This document shows positions 6,333 to 19,223 of a stretch of 64,000 nucleotides of DNA, one piece after another; the stretch's first letter is position 1, and each line of letters starts with the position of its first letter. The DNA is taken from contig CALVOV010000001.1 in NCBI GenBank assembly GCA_944350385.1, positions 1-64,000 on the forward strand, in the 5' to 3' direction. Made by a program: the position numbers and the translations under genes. The stretch comes from an uncultured Bacilli bacterium. GTDB taxonomy: Bacteria > Bacillota_I > Bacilli_A > RF39 > UBA660. The notes under the pieces are model-generated. The model ran no database searches. It was not told the origin of the DNA and saw only the letters and a list, made by a program, of their open reading frames with translations.

Positions 6333-8062
<1,730 letters not shown>

Positions 8063-8063
8063 T

Positions 8064-8813
8064 ATGGAAACAATCATAGTTACTATATTATTGATTTTTG
8101 TAACTTTATTAATACTGGTTATGTTTTTCTTTATAAGAAAGACTGTTGCTAAAATAAATCAGCAAACAAAAGATTTCTTTGTTGATAAGTTGCAAACTTA
8201 TGATGATTTAATTAGTGAAAGAGAAAAAAAATTAAGTGGATTAAAAGAAGATATAGAGCAAAGAGAAAAAATATTAAAAGAAAGTATTAATATTTCTGAT
8301 GGAAAAAATCAAGTATTTCTTTATGACTTAAAAAATATTGATTATCAATATGATAAAATTTTTAAGAAAATGAAAGAGGTAGACCAAAGATTTAACATTG
8401 ATACTGTAAAATTAATTAAAAGATTTATTAAAGAACACTTTAAAGATGATACTGTTTTGGAGTATACTAAATATGATAGCATACGAAAAGAATTTAATCA
8501 GCAAGTTATATTTAAATTAATTTCTATGCGACCAGTTGAACAAGAAAAAGAAGTAAGAAGAATAATGAGGGATTTAATTTATATTGTAGATAATTACAAA
8601 AAGAAAAACAAAATATTCGATACAAAAAAATTCATTTCTTATTTTGATAAAATCATAGATAAAGTAGATCCTTACATATATGTGTATACTGGTTCTAAAG
8701 ATGAAAATTATGATTCTTTTCATCCGTTTATTAGAACCAAAGTTGATAATGAAATATATAGAGGTATTTCAATAGTTTACAGGGGAAAATTATATGATTA
8801 CAGCTTAAAATAG
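8064..8813 (+). CDS. F0 stator-like protein, putative b-delta fusion
   Basis: This 249-residue protein occupies the position of subunits b and delta in the classical c-b-delta-alpha order. It has one N-terminal membrane helix (about 4-25), then a charged helical segment (about 30-80) as in subunit b. A mostly helical middle follows, and the last strand region ends in GISIVYRGKLYDYSL, which resembles the C-terminal strand pair of the delta subunit (a Gly, then hydrophobic residues, then D-x-S). A b-delta fusion is known in mycobacteria, so the architecture has precedent, but the similarity here is only by eye. No strong ribosome site is seen; translation is probably coupled to the c gene. Alternative: a novel stalk protein. 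Confidence 0.6.
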   Translation: METIIVTILLIFVTLLILVMFFFIRKTVAKINQQTKDFFVDKLQTYDDLISEREKKLSGLKEDIEQREKILKESINISDGKNQVFLYDLKNIDYQYDKIFKKMKEVDQRFNIDTVKLIKRFIKEHFKDDTVLEYTKYDSIRKEFNQQVIFKLISMRPVEQEKEVRRIMRDLIYIVDNYKKKNKIFDTKKFISYFDKIIDKVDPYIYVYTGSKDENYDSFHPFIRTKVDNEIYRGISIVYRGKLYDYSLK

Positions 8814-8825
8814 GAGGTGTTTACT

Positions 8826-11489
8826 ATGGATCAAGATTATGTAGATAAGCAAATTGATGCTAAAATTATCGAGATTAATAATAATGATAATGTCTATGAA
8901 GTTGGTACCGTCGTAAATGTTAAAGACTTTATAATAGAGGCTACAGGAATAGGTAATGTTATGTTTTATGAAAAAATTAATATTGCCAACAAGGCTATTG
9001 GTTATGTAAATAATATTAATGAAAGCACTGTTACTATAGCTGTATTAAAAATTAATTCTCCTATTAATGTTGGTGACATGGTTTATTCTACCAATACTCT
9101 TTATCAAGGAGAATTTTCTCCTTCCTCATTTGGTAGAGTTATTGATTTATTTGGTGTTGATAAATTAACTGGAAAGAAGTTTAATGATTTAATTCAAATA
9201 CCTATTGAAAGAAAGACTATTCCTATTATGGATAGAGGTTCTGTAAATAGACCTTTATTAACTGGAATTACAGGTATTGATTTAATGTATCCTATTGGTA
9301 GAGGTCAAAGACAATTAATTATTGGTGATAAGAGAACAGGTAAGACTCAAATAGGACTTGATACTATTGTTAATCAAAGGGATCAAAATGTTTTGTGTTT
9401 TTATGTTGCTATTGGAAAAACAAAAAAAGAAGTAAAAAATATTTATGCTGAATTAATGAAAAAGGGTGCTTTAGATTATACTATTATTATTACAGCTTTT
9501 AACGATGAACTTCCTCCTGTTATTTCTTTGATTCCTTATTTTGCTTTGAGTATTGCTGAAAATTACATGATGGAAGGTTCTGATGTATTAGTTGTTATTG
9601 ATGACTTAAAGAGGCATGCAGAAGCTTATCGTGAAATTAGTTTGATTTCTGGTAAAACTCCTGGTCGTGATGCTTATCCTGCTGATATATTTTATACACA
9701 TTCAAGATTATTAGAAAAAGGTTGTCAACATAAAAATGGTGGTTCAATAACAATTCTTCCAATTGTTGAGACTAAAGGTGGAGATATCACCGATTACATT
9801 TCTACTAATATTATTTCTATTACAGATGGTCAGATAGTTTTATCTTCTAAAAGTTTCCAAAAAGGTGAGAAACCAGCTATAGATTATGGACTTTCAGTTT
9901 CTCGTTTAGGTGGAGCTGTCCAAGAAAAAAGCATGAAAGTTGTTGGTTCTGTTGTTAGACGTAAATTATTAAGTTATTTGGAAACAAGAAATATTTACGA
10001 ATTAGTTAATATGGATGAAATGAGTTTTGAGTTAAAAAACCAATTCATGGAAGGTAAAATTATACTCGACAATATGATGCAGTATAAGTTTTCTCCTCGT
10101 ACTCCTGCTGAAATGCTTGATTTATTTGCAGGCCTTGTAGAAACTGATGAAGATGAAAATAGTAGTGATTCTTCTACGGATGAAGTTGCTATGGCCAATA
10201 ATGAAGTGTTTGAAACTCCAGCTCAGACTATTCCTGAAGATGGCTCTATATTTGATAATGATCAGACTGTTGTTATGGAAGAATCAGTTCCAGAACCTGT
10301 TTCTGAAGAAATTCCAAAAGAATCTCCAGTTCTTATTGAGCAACCTGTTGTTGAAAATGTTACTGACTTAACACAGCAAGATGTTTCTAATTTAGTTAAT
10401 GTTATGCCAGAAGAGATTCCTGCTACTCAAGTAGAGGAAAATATTCCTACTGATCCAATTGATAATTTAACGTCACAAGAAGTTCATGATGCAGTTGAAG
10501 TTCCTGATGAGTCAGCTTCAAGTAGTGAGGTTTTAGAAGTTCCATCTGCTACTGATTTAGTTGACAATCTAACAGCTCAAGAAGTTCACGATGCAGTTGA
10601 AGTTCCTGAAGATTCACTTTCAGAAGAACAAAATCCTGTTAGTGAGGTACCAGAAGTTTCTGAGACAACTGACTCAGTTGATGATGTGACTGCTCAAGAG
10701 GTTTATGATACTGTAAATGTTTCTCCTAATGAACTACCACCTAATAGTATGCCTGAGGAGATACCAAGTTCTCCTACAGAAGATATTTCATATATACCTG
10801 CTGAAGAGGTTATGGCTACTGTCGATGTACAACCTACTAAAGAAACTAAAGAAACTAAAGAAACAACAGTTGATGATGTAACTATGGGTACAACATTTAT
10901 TGATCCAGAACAAGTTCGTGCTACTGTTGAAGAAAAAGTTGTTGAAAATGATTTTGAACCTGCTATTCTTTCTGATATGGGAGTTGAGCCTGCAAATGAT
11001 ATGGAAGAAAAAAATTCAAAAGAAAATGAAGAAATTTCATCAGAATATCCAGTTCATGAAAATGTTGATATTCAGCAAAATGTTTCAATAGATAATCCAC
11101 AGACAGTAGAAGATGAATCTATAGTTAAACAATCTCTGCTTCCTGAAGAGGTGTTTATTGAGTATCCTACTCAGGAAAATACTATGGATATTCCAAAAAT
11201 TGTGCAGAGTGAAACAGCAGATAAATCTCTTGATATTCAGCAAAATGTTTCAATAGATAATCCACAAACAGTAGAAGATGAATCTATAGTTGCACAATCT
11301 CCGCATCCTGAAGAAGTGTCTATTGAGTATCCAATCGAAGATAATAATATAGTTAAAAAAGAAGATGAGTGTTCGTTTGCTTTTGATCCTGCCCTTATTT
11401 CAATAAGCACATCAGTCATTACTGAAGATAGTTCTGAAATAAATCATTCTGACGATAATGAAGGTGCAGAAGAGGAAGAAGTGATTTGA
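8826..11489 (+). CDS. atpA: F1-type ATPase alpha subunit with long acidic repeat tail
   Basis: The first ~438 residues are a recognisable F1 alpha subunit: the N-terminal beta barrel opening at YEVGTVV, PIGRGQRQLIIGDKRTGKT (P-loop about 168-175), YVAIGKT without a catalytic Glu, and GLSVSRLGG carrying the arginine finger (R about 359). This is a non-catalytic but arginine-donating alpha. It ends in the normal helical domain near FAGL. The remaining ~450 residues are acidic, Pro/Ser/Thr-rich and repetitive: about five copies of a QEVHDAVEV-type unit spaced 33-39 residues apart, and two nearly identical 55-residue units near the end. Canonical alpha subunits stop near 500 residues. The start at 8826 follows AGGAGGTG; an in-frame GTG at 8817 lies inside that site. 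The tail is presumably cytoplasmic, disordered and binding something. Confidence 0.92.
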   Translation: MDQDYVDKQIDAKIIEINNNDNVYEVGTVVNVKDFIIEATGIGNVMFYEKINIANKAIGYVNNINESTVTIAVLKINSPINVGDMVYSTNTLYQGEFSPSSFGRVIDLFGVDKLTGKKFNDLIQIPIERKTIPIMDRGSVNRPLLTGITGIDLMYPIGRGQRQLIIGDKRTGKTQIGLDTIVNQRDQNVLCFYVAIGKTKKEVKNIYAELMKKGALDYTIIITAFNDELPPVISLIPYFALSIAENYMMEGSDVLVVIDDLKRHAEAYREISLISGKTPGRDAYPADIFYTHSRLLEKGCQHKNGGSITILPIVETKGGDITDYISTNIISITDGQIVLSSKSFQKGEKPAIDYGLSVSRLGGAVQEKSMKVVGSVVRRKLLSYLETRNIYELVNMDEMSFELKNQFMEGKIILDNMMQYKFSPRTPAEMLDLFAGLVETDEDENSSDSSTDEVAMANNEVFETPAQTIPEDGSIFDNDQTVVMEESVPEPVSEEIPKESPVLIEQPVVENVTDLTQQDVSNLVNVMPEEIPATQVEENIPTDPIDNLTSQEVHDAVEVPDESASSSEVLEVPSATDLVDNLTAQEVHDAVEVPEDSLSEEQNPVSEVPEVSETTDSVDDVTAQEVYDTVNVSPNELPPNSMPEEIPSSPTEDISYIPAEEVMATVDVQPTKETKETKETTVDDVTMGTTFIDPEQVRATVEEKVVENDFEPAILSDMGVEPANDMEEKNSKENEEISSEYPVHENVDIQQNVSIDNPQTVEDESIVKQSLLPEEVFIEYPTQENTMDIPKIVQSETADKSLDIQQNVSIDNPQTVEDESIVAQSPHPEEVSIEYPIEDNNIVKKEDECSFAFDPALISISTSVITEDSSEINHSDDNEGAEEEEVI
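10364..10960 (+). repeat. Degenerate ~34-39-residue repeats in the alpha-subunit tail
   Basis: Units resembling (D/N)-L-T-x-Q-E-V-H-D-A-V-E-V-P recur at about 10365, 10464, 10566 and 10683, with more diverged copies (PAEEVMATVDV, DPEQVRATVEE) downstream. Acidic Pro/Ser/Glu spacers separate the copies. The regular short motif inside disordered spacers looks like an array of docking sites. Confidence 0.75.
11067..11346 (+). repeat. Two near-identical 165-bp tandem units in the alpha-subunit tail
   Basis: The unit beginning DIQQNVSIDNPQTVEDESIV starts at 11067 and again at 11232, a 55-residue period. The first ~60 bases of the two copies differ at one position, so the duplication looks recent and copy number may vary between strains. 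Confidence 0.85.
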
Positions 11490-11490
11490 T

Positions 11491-12264
11491 ATGGGTGTAC
11501 GTAATGTCGTAAAAGTCATGAATTTCCATTCTCTTCTTCGTGTTGATTCGGCAAGAAAAAAAGCTGCGATGTATTTTGATACTGAAAAAGAGTTATATAG
11601 ATTCATGCATAAAATCTTATATAATAAAAATATAATCTTAGATAAAAAATCCATAAGGCCTAATGAAAGTGCTCCGGTTTTAAATGTATATATAGGTAAT
11701 GATTTAGGCTTTTGTGGAGACTTTAACTTCTCTATTAATAAGCAGGTAAGATTAGATAAAAATGATTATAAAATTATAATAGGTAGAAAAATTCACTCTT
11801 ATGATGATGATGGTAAGGTAATTTTGTTTTTGACAAAAGAGGAGTTTTTTTCTAGTTTTAAGAAAGTTGAAGATGTTATTTATGATGCGATAATAGGTCG
11901 AAAGTATCGTGAAATAAATGTTGTATATAACCATTATCATAACGTTAATAATTTGGAATTTACTAAGAAAAAACTTTTTCCTATTGAATATAATCCAGAA
12001 AATTATAATGATACTTATGATGAGGATTTTGCGATGGAAACAGAGATTACTAGTATGTTGAATAACTTAACAGCTCTTTATATTTGTTATGAATTAAAGA
12101 TTTCTGAAATGAATAGTTATGCTGCTGAAAATGTTGTTCGTCAACAATTAACTAATCAATCTTTGAAGAAAATTGACGAAATAGAGGAAGAGAAAGCTAA
12201 AGTTGCTAGAAAAGAGAAAAAACAAAAAGATTTCCAAAAGATTATAGAGAATTATAGAAAATAA
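11491..12264 (+). CDS. atpG: F1-type ATPase gamma-like subunit (central stalk)
   Basis: This 257-residue protein sits between alpha and beta, the classical place of gamma. The N-terminal helix (VVKVMNFHSLLRVDSARKKA) matches the family's first coiled-coil strand. The central segment VYIGNDLGFCGDFN corresponds to the conserved SDRGLCGGLN motif of the Rossmann-like domain. The C-terminal part (ISEMNSYAAENVVRQQLT) matches the second long helix, with an extra Lys/Glu-rich end. It is somewhat shorter than the usual ~285 residues. The start ATG is one base after the alpha stop. Assignment is firm for position and motifs, less so for full rotor function. Confidence 0.82.
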   Translation: MGVRNVVKVMNFHSLLRVDSARKKAAMYFDTEKELYRFMHKILYNKNIILDKKSIRPNESAPVLNVYIGNDLGFCGDFNFSINKQVRLDKNDYKIIIGRKIHSYDDDGKVILFLTKEEFFSSFKKVEDVIYDAIIGRKYREINVVYNHYHNVNNLEFTKKKLFPIEYNPENYNDTYDEDFAMETEITSMLNNLTALYICYELKISEMNSYAAENVVRQQLTNQSLKKIDEIEEEKAKVARKEKKQKDFQKIIENYRK

Positions 12265-12282: not shown

Positions 12283-13882
<1,600 letters not shown>

Positions 13883-13884
13883 AT

Positions 13885-14433
13885 ATGAAAATAAATAGTT
13901 TAATGATTATACTTATAAGATTTTTAATAATGTTTATCATCTTCGTACTTCTATTACAATTGATTTTTTATCTTATTGTAGATAAGAATAAATCTAATGA
14001 AATAAAGGGATTAAGAATAAATTTTTTTGGATTACTTTTGGAAATTGATAATTGGATGACACTTGCTTTGTCAGTATCTTTGATAAGATATATATTTATC
14101 ATTTGGACTTTGTTTGATTCTGCTTCGATAAGTATTATTCATGTTACTATATTATTTACTCTTTCTGTTTTGTATGGTGTCTTTACTAAGAGCATTAAAA
14201 ATATAATATTTGAGTTTTTAAGTAGCATTGCTTTATACTATTCTTTAATCTCTAGTAGATTATTAACTGGCTATTTAGCTGAAGTTCGTTATGAGTGGTA
14301 TGTATTTTTAGGTGATATTTTATTAAAAATATTTATTATTTTATATTCGACATTATTCTTATTAAGAAATATTACTGATGCTGTTTTGAAACATAAATTT
14401 ATTAGGAGTGATAAAAATGGAAATCATCGATAA
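13885..14433 (+). CDS. Polytopic membrane protein, possible minimal F0 subunit a
   Basis: This 182-residue protein has about five hydrophobic helices (about 6-31, 56-77, 82-100, 105-124, 138-160) and no named family that I recognise. A segment running FEFLSSIALYY...SRLLTGYLAEV (R125, E133) loosely resembles the essential-arginine helix of subunit a (RL...N..AGE), and a final hydrophobic helix follows, as in subunit a. Subunit a is otherwise absent from an operon that has a c ring, so this is the best candidate, displaced from its usual first position. The similarity is weak and by eye. It starts 2 bases after the epsilon-like stop and overlaps the next gene by 17 bases. Confidence 0.5.
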   Translation: MKINSLMIILIRFLIMFIIFVLLLQLIFYLIVDKNKSNEIKGLRINFFGLLLEIDNWMTLALSVSLIRYIFIIWTLFDSASISIIHVTILFTLSVLYGVFTKSIKNIIFEFLSSIALYYSLISSRLLTGYLAEVRYEWYVFLGDILLKIFIILYSTLFLLRNITDAVLKHKFIRSDKNGNHR

Positions 14434-16667: not shown

Positions 16668-16679
16668 TAATAATTTAAT

Positions 16680-16705
16680 GGATAGAGTTTTCTATCCTTT
16701 TTTTG
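16680..16705 (+). terminator. Intrinsic terminator after the SASP gene
   Basis: Perfect 7-bp stem GGATAGA/TCTATCC (16680-16697) followed by a run of T. Confidence 0.85.
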
Positions 16706-16711
16706 TGTTTA

Positions 16712-16739
16712 TTGACTTTTTCAGTTATTTTTGTTATTT
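16712..16739 (+). promoter_or_regulatory. Promoter of the first acetate kinase gene
   Basis: TTGACT (16712-16717), a 16-base spacer and TGtTATTTT (hexamer 16734-16739) form a plausible sigma-A promoter. A TATAAT at 16740 is too far from the -35 to pair with it. Confidence 0.45.
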
Positions 16740-16764
16740 TATAATCACTGAAGAGAGGGATTTT

Positions 16765-17970
16765 ATGAAGTTATTAAGTATTAATGCAGGTAGTAGTTCT
16801 TTAAAGTTTAGGCTATATGAAATGCCTGAGGAAAAGTTAATTGTCAAAGGTACTTTTGAACGTATAGGTTTAGATGATTCTTTTTATACAACTCGTATGA
16901 ATGGTGAAAAAAAAGAAATTAGTGTTGTTATAAGAGATCATAAAGAAGCAGTTGAAATATTATCTAACTTATTAGTAGATATGAACGCAGTTAGTTCATT
17001 AGATGAAATCGAGGCTATTGGACACAGAGTAGTTCATGGCGGAAATAAGTATTCAAAGAGCGTAAAAATTACGGATAAAGTTATTCATGAAATAGAAAGA
17101 ATATCTGATTTGGCTCCATTACATAATCCAGCTGCTTTGAAAGGTATATATGCTTTTAAGGAAAAAATTCCAAATGCTAAAATGGTTGCTTGCTTTGACA
17201 CTGCATTTCATCAAACTATGGATGAAGCTACTTATTTATATGCTATTCCCTATGAATGGTATGTTAAATATGATGTTCGAAAATATGGATTTCATGGTTT
17301 AAGTCATAAATTTATTACTGAACAAATGTCTAAAATTTTGAATAAAAAACCTAATTTAATAATTTGCCATATAGGAAATGGAGGAAGTGTTACTGCTGTT
17401 GAAAATGGTAAGTGCATTGATACTTCTATGGGGTTTACACCAAATGCTGGAATCATGATGGGTACTCGTTCTGGTGATATTGATTATTCGATAATTAGTT
17501 ATATAATGAAGAAAGAAGAAAGAAATTTAGAGTGGGTAGAGAATCAGTTAAATAAGTTCAGTGGATTAGAAGGTATTGCTGGAATGAGTGATTTACGTGA
17601 TATTGATAGAGCTTTCGAAGCTAAAGAAGGTAAAGTTATTTTAGCAATTGATATGTATTCTAATAGAATTGTTGATTATATTTCTAGATTTTATGTAAAA
17701 TTAAAAGGTAATGTTGATGCAATAGTATTTACTGCTGGTGGAGGAGAAAATGATTCTATTATTCGTTCTGAAGTTGTTAAAAAGTTATCAGCTTTAAATA
17801 TTTATTTGGATAAAGAAAAAAATAATGCAACCATTGTTCGTAAAGGTGTGGAAGGAATTATATCTACTGCTGATTCAAAGATTCCTGTATATGTTTTAGC
17901 AACAGATGAAGAACTTATGATAGCAAGAGATACTTATACTATATTTAATGAAGAATTATCAATGCGATAA
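16765..17970 (+). CDS. ackA: Acetate kinase (first of two tandem paralogues, diverged)
   Basis: Acetate kinase interconverts acetyl phosphate plus ADP with acetate plus ATP. The 401-residue product has the ASKHA-fold signature motifs: LSINAGSSSLKF at the N-terminus, GHRVVHGG, DTAFHQTM, HIGNGGSV, and the C-terminal TDEELMIARD with the metal-site Glu. Some usually fixed positions differ: FHGLSH instead of FHGTSH, GDIDYSII instead of GDIDPSII, and FTAGGGEN instead of FTAGVGEN. The start follows GAGAGGGAT; upstream in-frame codons lie in the promoter. A terminator ends the gene, so it is transcribed apart from the neighbouring paralogue. It is probably active, but substrate use may have shifted (for example to propionate or butyrate). 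Confidence 0.9.
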   Translation: MKLLSINAGSSSLKFRLYEMPEEKLIVKGTFERIGLDDSFYTTRMNGEKKEISVVIRDHKEAVEILSNLLVDMNAVSSLDEIEAIGHRVVHGGNKYSKSVKITDKVIHEIERISDLAPLHNPAALKGIYAFKEKIPNAKMVACFDTAFHQTMDEATYLYAIPYEWYVKYDVRKYGFHGLSHKFITEQMSKILNKKPNLIICHIGNGGSVTAVENGKCIDTSMGFTPNAGIMMGTRSGDIDYSIISYIMKKEERNLEWVENQLNKFSGLEGIAGMSDLRDIDRAFEAKEGKVILAIDMYSNRIVDYISRFYVKLKGNVDAIVFTAGGGENDSIIRSEVVKKLSALNIYLDKEKNNATIVRKGVEGIISTADSKIPVYVLATDEELMIARDTYTIFNEELSMR

Positions 17971-17980
17971 TTCTTTTTCT
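17951..17980 (+). terminator. Intrinsic terminator between the two acetate kinase genes
   Basis: Perfect 10-bp stem (17951-17960 with 17966-17975) containing the stop codon, followed by a T-rich tract. Confidence 0.8.
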
Positions 17981-18008
17981 TTGAATATCAAATTAGTTGT
18001 TGTATAAT
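17981..18008 (+). promoter_or_regulatory. Sigma-A promoter of the second acetate kinase operon
   Basis: TTGAAT (17981-17986), 16-base spacer, TATAAT (18003-18008). Confidence 0.65.
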
Positions 18009-18038
18009 ATTAATAGATTTGAAAGAAGGAGACATTTT

Positions 18039-19223
18039 ATGAAAATATTATCTATTAACTGTGGAAGCAGTTCTTTAAAGTTTAGTTTATTCGATATGAA
18101 GGATGAATCAGTAATCGCTTCTGGAGTTTTTGAAAGAATCGGTATTGAAGGAGGAGCATATAAGATTAAATATAATGGTGAAAAAATCACTCAAGAAATT
18201 GAAATGCCAAGTCATACTGATGCTGTTAGTGTATTGCTTGAAAAATTAATTGATTTAGAAATTATCAAATCATTAGATGAGATTGATGGCGTTGGACATC
18301 GTATAGTTCAAGGTAAAGACGAATTTCTTGAATCAACATATATTACTGAAGAAGTAGTTCAAAAGATTGAAGATTTTAAAGATTTTGCACCACTACATAA
18401 TCCAGCACATGTTCTTGGAATAAGAGCTTTTATGAAAGTATTACCAAATGTACCTATGGTTGCTGTATTTGATACTTCTTTTCATCAAACTATGGATAAG
18501 GAAGCATATTTGTATCCTGTGCCTTATAAATGGTATAAAGAATATGGTGTTCGTAAATATGGATTTCATGGAACATCACATAGATATATTGCTAATGCAG
18601 TTAAAGAAATTTTAGGCGGAGATCAATTTAAATTAATAAGTTGTCATATAGGAAATGGTGGAAGTATTACAGCTATTAAAGATGGTAAATGTGTTGATAC
18701 TTCTATGGGATTTACTCCGTTAGCAGGAATTATGATGGGTTCTCGTTCTGGTGATATTGATCCTTCAATTATTCCTTATGTTATGGAAAAAGAAGGAAAG
18801 AATGTTGGAGAAGTTATTGATGATTTAAATAAAAGTAGTGGTCTTTTAGGATTAAGTGAATTTTCTTCTGATATGCGTGATATCATTTCAAAATGTGATG
18901 AAGGAGATGAAAAGGCTTTAATTGCTAGAAATAAATATGCTAGAAGAGTGGTTGATTATATAGCTCAATATTATGTTTTACTAGGTGGAGCTGATGTTAT
19001 TGCCTTTACTGCTGGTGTTGGAGAAAATAGTATTCCTATGAGAAGATTAATTTGTGAAAAACTTGCTTGTTTAGGAGTTAAAATTGATTTAGATAAAAAT
19101 AATGTTATGGGTGAAAGAGTTAAAATCAGTACTGATGATTCAAAAATTGAAGTTTGGGTCATTCCTACTGATGAAGAGGTAATGATTGCTAGAGATACTT
19201 TAAATATAATAAAGAATAGATAG
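18039..19223 (+). CDS. ackA: Acetate kinase (second tandem paralogue)
   Basis: This 394-residue paralogue carries LSINCGSSSLKF, DTSFHQTM, YGFHGTSHRY, HIGNGGSI, GSRSGDIDPSII, FTAGVGENS and TDEEVMIARD, so the positions altered in the first copy are canonical here. Here, though, the segment that normally reads GHRVVHGG is GHRIVQGK, replacing the His and second Gly. The two genes therefore deviate at complementary places. The start at 18039 follows AAGGAGA. It heads a compact operon with nrnA (10-base gap) and engB (11-base gap) under its own promoter. No phosphotransacetylase gene is in this window. Confidence 0.92.
   Translation: MKILSINCGSSSLKFSLFDMKDESVIASGVFERIGIEGGAYKIKYNGEKITQEIEMPSHTDAVSVLLEKLIDLEIIKSLDEIDGVGHRIVQGKDEFLESTYITEEVVQKIEDFKDFAPLHNPAHVLGIRAFMKVLPNVPMVAVFDTSFHQTMDKEAYLYPVPYKWYKEYGVRKYGFHGTSHRYIANAVKEILGGDQFKLISCHIGNGGSITAIKDGKCVDTSMGFTPLAGIMMGSRSGDIDPSIIPYVMEKEGKNVGEVIDDLNKSSGLLGLSEFSSDMRDIISKCDEGDEKALIARNKYARRVVDYIAQYYVLLGGADVIAFTAGVGENSIPMRRLICEKLACLGVKIDLDKNNVMGERVKISTDDSKIEVWVIPTDEEVMIARDTLNIIKNR

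Follow-up and report, generated by a model that had tools for sequence, protein, structure and literature searches.

An F1-like ATPase operon of uncultured Bacilli with no recognisable ion path and with a long disordered tail on its alpha subunit

Judged by its genes, an operon of an uncultured Bacilli bacterium (RF39; UBA660) encodes an ATPase that has retained the catalytic motifs, a c-like ring and the gamma subunit of ATP synthase and that has neither the ion-binding acid of the c ring nor a recognisable subunit a. It represents a third non-canonical F1 lineage, apart from Types 2 and 3 of the mycoplasmas, and is most likely a membrane motor that runs on ATP without pumping ions. The operon was analysed in the first 64,000 nucleotides of contig CALVOV010000001.1 (assembly GCA_944350385.1; hereafter the window), where the alpha subunit ends in a tail that is a fast-evolving, disordered, lineage-specific add-on (Table 1). 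No description of this variant was found in open-access papers.

Table 1. Features of the operon and of the alpha tail, in the order in which they are encoded in the window.
Feature	Position	Strand	Remarks
Giant exported protein, fn3-type domains, 1793 aa	925..6306	+	
Single-TM surface protein, 490 aa	6333..7805	+	
c-like ring subunit	7817..8062	+	Ring helix 1 and RNP loop conserved
b-delta-like stalk protein	8064..8813	+	TM and long helix, six-helix bundle, C-terminal strands
alpha-like core, residues 1-438	8826..10139	+	Walker A GDKRTGKT and arginine-finger motif SVSRLGG kept
Acidic disordered tail, 449 residues and stop	10140..11489	+	Residues 439-887
Six motif copies, [LIV][TSPD]x[QE][EDQ]Vxx[ATL]V	10368..10933	+	Spacing 33-39 residues
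Two 135-nt repeat copies	11056..11355 (11056-11190, 11221-11355)	+	85% identical
AGAGGAAGAAGTGAT...TATG, codes tail end EEEVI	11465..11493	+	Resembles ribosome-binding site of gamma
gamma-like subunit, 257 aa	11491..12264	+	
beta-like catalytic subunit	12286..13656	+	Catalytic motif present
Short epsilon-like protein, 85 aa	13625..13882	+	Assigned by operon position; no Pfam match
Five-TM protein, weakly a-subunit-like fold	13885..14433	+	No conserved mid-membrane Arg
Single-TM protein with extracytoplasmic domain, 243 aa	14408..15139	+	Domain common to two upstream surface proteins

The alpha core and the tail are read from one open frame (8817/8826-11489) with no stop between them, giving a product of 890 amino acids counted from GTG or 887 counted from ATG, and gamma starts one base past the stop codon of the tail. 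The alpha models of Pfam and NCBIfam reach residue ~444, which agrees with the end of the alpha fold that the first-pass annotation had placed near residue 438; its further statement that canonical alpha subunits end there as well has to be given up, as complete canonical alphas of the same family have 502-511 amino acids and the PDB matches ~500-510. The C-terminal ~65 residues of canonical alpha are missing in every relative with the aberrant operon, tailed or untailed, and because the untailed relatives end at about residue 434-453, this loss is family-wide. The tail stands in place of the lost alpha C-terminus, at the membrane-facing end. The alpha misses the NCBIfam cut-offs for canonical alpha subunits (390.1 versus 484.45 for TIGR00962 and 422.9 versus 554 for PRK13343). 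A second alpha gene in the same genome was considered and rejected; besides alpha itself, beta alone was matched. Alpha, beta, gamma and epsilon are encoded together (epsilon by position only), and in a set of 35 genomes that includes three canonical operons and some partial genes, Walker A is present in 32 alphas and 33 betas, SVSR[VL]G in all 35 alphas and GER[ST]REG in 31 betas.

The operon had at first been taken for an ordinary F1; the missing ion path shows otherwise. Whole-genome searches detected subunit a (PF00119) in none of 30 genomes with the aberrant operon and in all five family genomes with a canonical operon, one in each. Every genome (35/35) has one c gene. The c-like subunits (31 genomes) were aligned with six canonical c sequences taken from loci within the family; at the ion-binding column of helix 2 the canonical sequences have Glu, and all 31 c-like subunits lack an acid (Ser in 11, Thr in 10, Ala in 9 and Met in 1); helix 1, which packs the ring, and the RNP loop are strongly conserved. 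In the c-like subunit of the window, the residue just before the canonical acid position is an Asp, which none of the 30 aligned relatives has there. Loss of transport would be expected, as ion-translocating enzymes are described as having this acid without exception (PMC6063947).

Structure models suggest, with support that is weaker than for the ion path, that the complex still has a b-delta-like stalk and a degenerate a-like protein. The AF2 model of the stalk protein (pLDDT 82.0) has a long N-terminal helix, six helices and then strands, and essentially all of its leading Foldseek matches are OSCP/delta chains, at weak scores (best E 0.014, prob 0.92); the Pfam OSCP family gives weak matches to the stalk protein in two of 30 members. 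The model of the five-TM protein (pLDDT 83.7) has several subunit a chains among its leading Foldseek matches, also weak (best E 0.38), and no conserved mid-membrane Arg was found in it among the relatives aligned. By sequence, neither the stalk protein nor the a-like protein has a relevant match in the PDB.

The three surface proteins encoded beside the motor genes have one extracytoplasmic domain in common (97, 89 and 80% in profile comparison). In the G140 group neither the giant protein nor the 490-aa protein was recognised near the operon, and some relatives encode further giant proteins downstream, with laminin-G-like and GLUG matches (L070:851-11350, 3500 aa; L076:799-9465, minus strand, 2889 aa). 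Epsilon has ~136 amino acids in the canonical operons of the family versus 85 here, so the C-terminal inhibitory helices of the epsilon-like protein are probably absent. Beyond the operon, at 16678-19223 of the window, inspection of translations found two adjoining acetate-kinase-like genes. Alpha matches are patchily distributed, occurring in 13 of 193 sampled genomes of the family and 36 of 385 of the order, counts that include canonical operons and three marginal matches; with the stalk-protein model, the operon was not found outside its family among 395 genomes of the class. The genomes compared are drafts, that of the window itself being in 50 contigs with 5.95% contamination.

The in-frame acidic tail of ~450 residues that the first-pass annotation described is borne out: it contains 27% D+E, has a net charge of about -106, and is predicted to be disordered by charge and hydropathy (-0.20, versus +0.21 for the core). 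Where about five QEVHDAVEV-like units had been counted at spacings of 33-39 residues, there are six at those spacings, starting at residues 515, 548, 582, 621, 657 and 692, a number reached in none of 5000 shuffles of the tail. The two near-identical units of 55 residues correspond to the 135-nt copies, which are offset by 165 nt and have one mismatch within a stretch of 62 bases. The codon-position composition of the tail is that of coding DNA, and no tail-like sequence was found elsewhere in the same genome. The tail end EEEVI is common to four congeners with near-identical DNA (AGAGGAAGAAGTGAT). A role for EEEVI as a peptide motif is not needed to account for this, because the position of this DNA suits a ribosome-binding site of gamma.

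Alpha was read in 33 genomes with the aberrant operon, and eight of them have long tails (the window genome, G433, G434, G432, G095, G137, G058 and G007; loci L027 and L028 are equated with G434 and G432, respectively, from matching coordinates and lengths). The other 25 alphas end near residue 440, except that those of G018 and G123 have modest tails and that of G223 is read with a longer N-terminus. The long tails span about 216 to 978 residues, with minimum values for G095, G137 and G058 because their contigs end inside the tail. Three congeners have intact in-frame tails of 391-652 residues and G007 has one of 978 residues; wherever the junction is assembled, long tails end just before gamma. 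The gene order is alpha-beta-epsilon-(five-TM)-gamma in some relatives; where the order is visible, every long tail is found with alpha-gamma-beta. A tree of alpha cores puts the tailed genomes into two groups, {window genus, G095, G137} and {G058, G007}. This tree needs two changes, yet one clade, and with it a single origin of the tail, is not rejected (p-AU 0.23); long tails were apparently gained repeatedly on the same end of the subunit. G007 (L067) is labelled as the same genus as G339 (L089) and G380 (L088), yet differs from them in operon order, in its tail and in its place in the alpha tree, a hint that the operon may have been transferred horizontally. Long alphas of other families (L121, L122, L124, L125) have no C-terminal tails; additions there are N-terminal (L121:9532-11559; L122:9175-11202; 689 aa in L125), delta-like by sequence inspection in at least L121 and L125, in operons that otherwise look canonical.

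Internal repeats lie far above shuffles in every tail, and their type differs by lineage. The QEV-type motif occurs in six copies in the window, four in G433 and six in L027 (shuffle p at or below 0.0005 for G433 and L027, whose tails share just 30-39% identity with that of the window), and was found neither in the congener L028 nor in the tails of other lineages, so that it is rejected as a universal feature. The tail ends of L070 (G058) and L067 (G007) have small motif sets of their own (two DIDEII-LL and about three EMLD). Variation in repeat number across relatives, which the first-pass annotation had proposed looking for, does occur: the DIQQNVSIDNPQTVEDESIV unit is present twice in the window and once in G433. 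The same annotation regarded relatives with the operon and no tail as evidence against its proposal of a multivalent docking platform, and 25 such genomes exist. What survives of that proposal is an in-frame tail with many copies of a short motif that recurs in two congeners; its weakness is the absence of the motif from L028 and from other lineages, which, together with the 25 tailless genomes, implies that the core machine can do without the tail and that a conserved docking partner for the exact motif is unlikely.

A reading to which we give about an even chance is that the tail is a genuine, fast-evolving, disordered extension of a non-canonical rotary ATPase, an ion-free motor that works on surface proteins, with the tails as tethers. 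Hydrolysis of ATP would make gamma and the c ring rotate relative to the stalk; ion pumping would not take place, and the work would be passed to surface proteins as torque or as conformational work. Because the ion-pumping parts are missing or disabled and surface proteins are encoded beside it, the motor probably drives something at the cell surface rather than making ATP. The C-termini of alpha subunits lie on the membrane-facing side in solved F1 structures, so the three tails would be expected to exit there. They may serve as flexible, multivalent tethers whose short repeated motifs, which change from one lineage to the next, either gather motors into clusters or attach them to a partner in the cytoplasm.

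A serious rival, on balance an unlikely one, is that the tail is mainly an acidic entropic brush or a near-neutral low-complexity sequence, grown by slippage and repeat duplication, in which composition is kept and no specific partner is involved. Such a role is possible because the motifs are not conserved outside the genus, and it is consistent with the identity of the tails between congeners (29-39%, versus 88-89% for the cores), with the differences in repeat type and in length between lineages, and with the mostly non-synonymous differences between the copies of recent duplications (13 of 16 changed codons in the 135-nt pair). It accounts less well for a specific motif held at four to six copies in three congeners whose tails have otherwise strongly diverged, and for long tails having been gained, as it seems, more than once at the same end of alpha. 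One might suspect, from a contaminated draft genome and from three relatives whose contigs end inside the tail, that the tail arose through an assembly error or a frameshift and is not translated together with alpha; this has a negligible chance of being correct, given the intact in-frame tails in three independent congeners and in G007, those of the congeners ending just before gamma, and the coding-like codon-position composition.

Quite improbable is a role in regulation, in which the tail would block or slow ATP hydrolysis like the much shorter C-terminal extension of alpha in mycobacteria. That extension is a short regulatory element; the tail here is far longer, repeat-bearing and acidic, its composition is different, its sequence is not conserved, and 25 relatives have no tail. 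A short epsilon-like protein without room for the usual inhibitory helices is found in tailed and untailed relatives alike, which also speaks against the tail as a substitute brake, even though an ion-uncoupled motor would need another one. The location near gamma would fit such a role: the mycobacterial extension is at the same end of the subunit, and the alpha C-terminus of mycobacteria is reported in connection with blocked ATP hydrolysis and with gamma (PMC8698299). Somewhat less credible still is that ions are in fact pumped, by a divergent complex whose a and c subunits went unrecognised in the tests. The c-like ring and the five-TM protein with its weak fold match to subunit a would fit such a pump, but in 30 of 31 genomes the c site and its surroundings are free of acids (the exception being the Asp of the window), the a-like protein has no conserved mid-membrane Arg, and the same search that should have been evaded did detect subunit a in all five canonical operons of the family.

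The Type 2 and Type 3 machines of mycoplasmas are the closest points of comparison for the proposed ion-free motor. The Type 3 F1-like X0 ATPase (MSC_0619 family; MMCAP2_0575-0581) likewise has alpha-, beta-, gamma- and epsilon-like subunits, no recognised ion path, and exported membrane proteins in its operon (PMC12994834, PMC3369863); it is needed for MIB-MIP function, and a proposed model passes the energy of ATP across the membrane (PMC12994834). The operon here differs in retaining a c-like ring subunit, a b-delta-like stalk and an a-like five-TM protein, in its separate alpha clade, and in having no 12-TM membrane protein, as hydropathy maps of the operon give only 5-TM, 2-TM (c) and 1-TM proteins. 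Its alpha misses the cut-off of the MSC_0619 family (302.9 versus 520; positive controls from other genomes score 552.9-700.4) and that of the gliding family MMOB1660 (382.5 versus 600). The G1-ATPase of Mycoplasma mobile (Type 2; MMOB1610-1670) forms the gliding motor, an F1-like motor coupled to surface proteins, and has a subunit extension in the N-terminal region of beta that is involved in joining motors (PMC11864180, PMC12994834), whereas the extension here is on the C-terminus of alpha and is disordered. In the alpha tree, the aberrant operons form their own clade (100/99) apart from the canonical alphas, and mycoplasma-type alphas form another (100/100); when the tree is left unrooted these clades adjoin (87/78) with long branches, which does not by itself establish a closer kinship. 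Canonical bacterial F1Fo ATP synthase has the catalytic motifs, the c-like ring and probably the delta-like stalk in common with the complex described here, which differs in having no detectable subunit a, no c carboxylate, an alpha that is ~65 residues shorter and a short epsilon-like protein. The acidic, proline-rich (APR) regions of P65, HMW1 and HMW3, proteins of the attachment organelle of Mycoplasma pneumoniae, are acidic, Pro-containing and disordered and belong to a motility machine (PMC11940719); their likeness to the tail is one of composition only.

A bolder proposal, which we hold tentatively and consider somewhat doubtful, is that this is a previously undescribed third F1-like lineage in which the c ring is a transmembrane shaft without an ion site that delivers torque to large surface proteins, with multivalent alpha tails arraying or anchoring the motors in some lineages. 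Recognisable Fo parts are absent from the known F1-like X0 machines of mycoplasmas, which leaves the route of ATP energy across the membrane to be explained there. The lineage described here resembles a halfway stage from ion pump to mechanical motor, having lost the ion-binding acid and kept a c-like ring together with a putative delta-like stalk and a putative a-like protein. The tail raises a second question, since long disordered extensions were apparently gained more than once by one subunit of the motor. With such an intermediate, an ATP-driven rotary shaft through the membrane becomes a directly testable idea.
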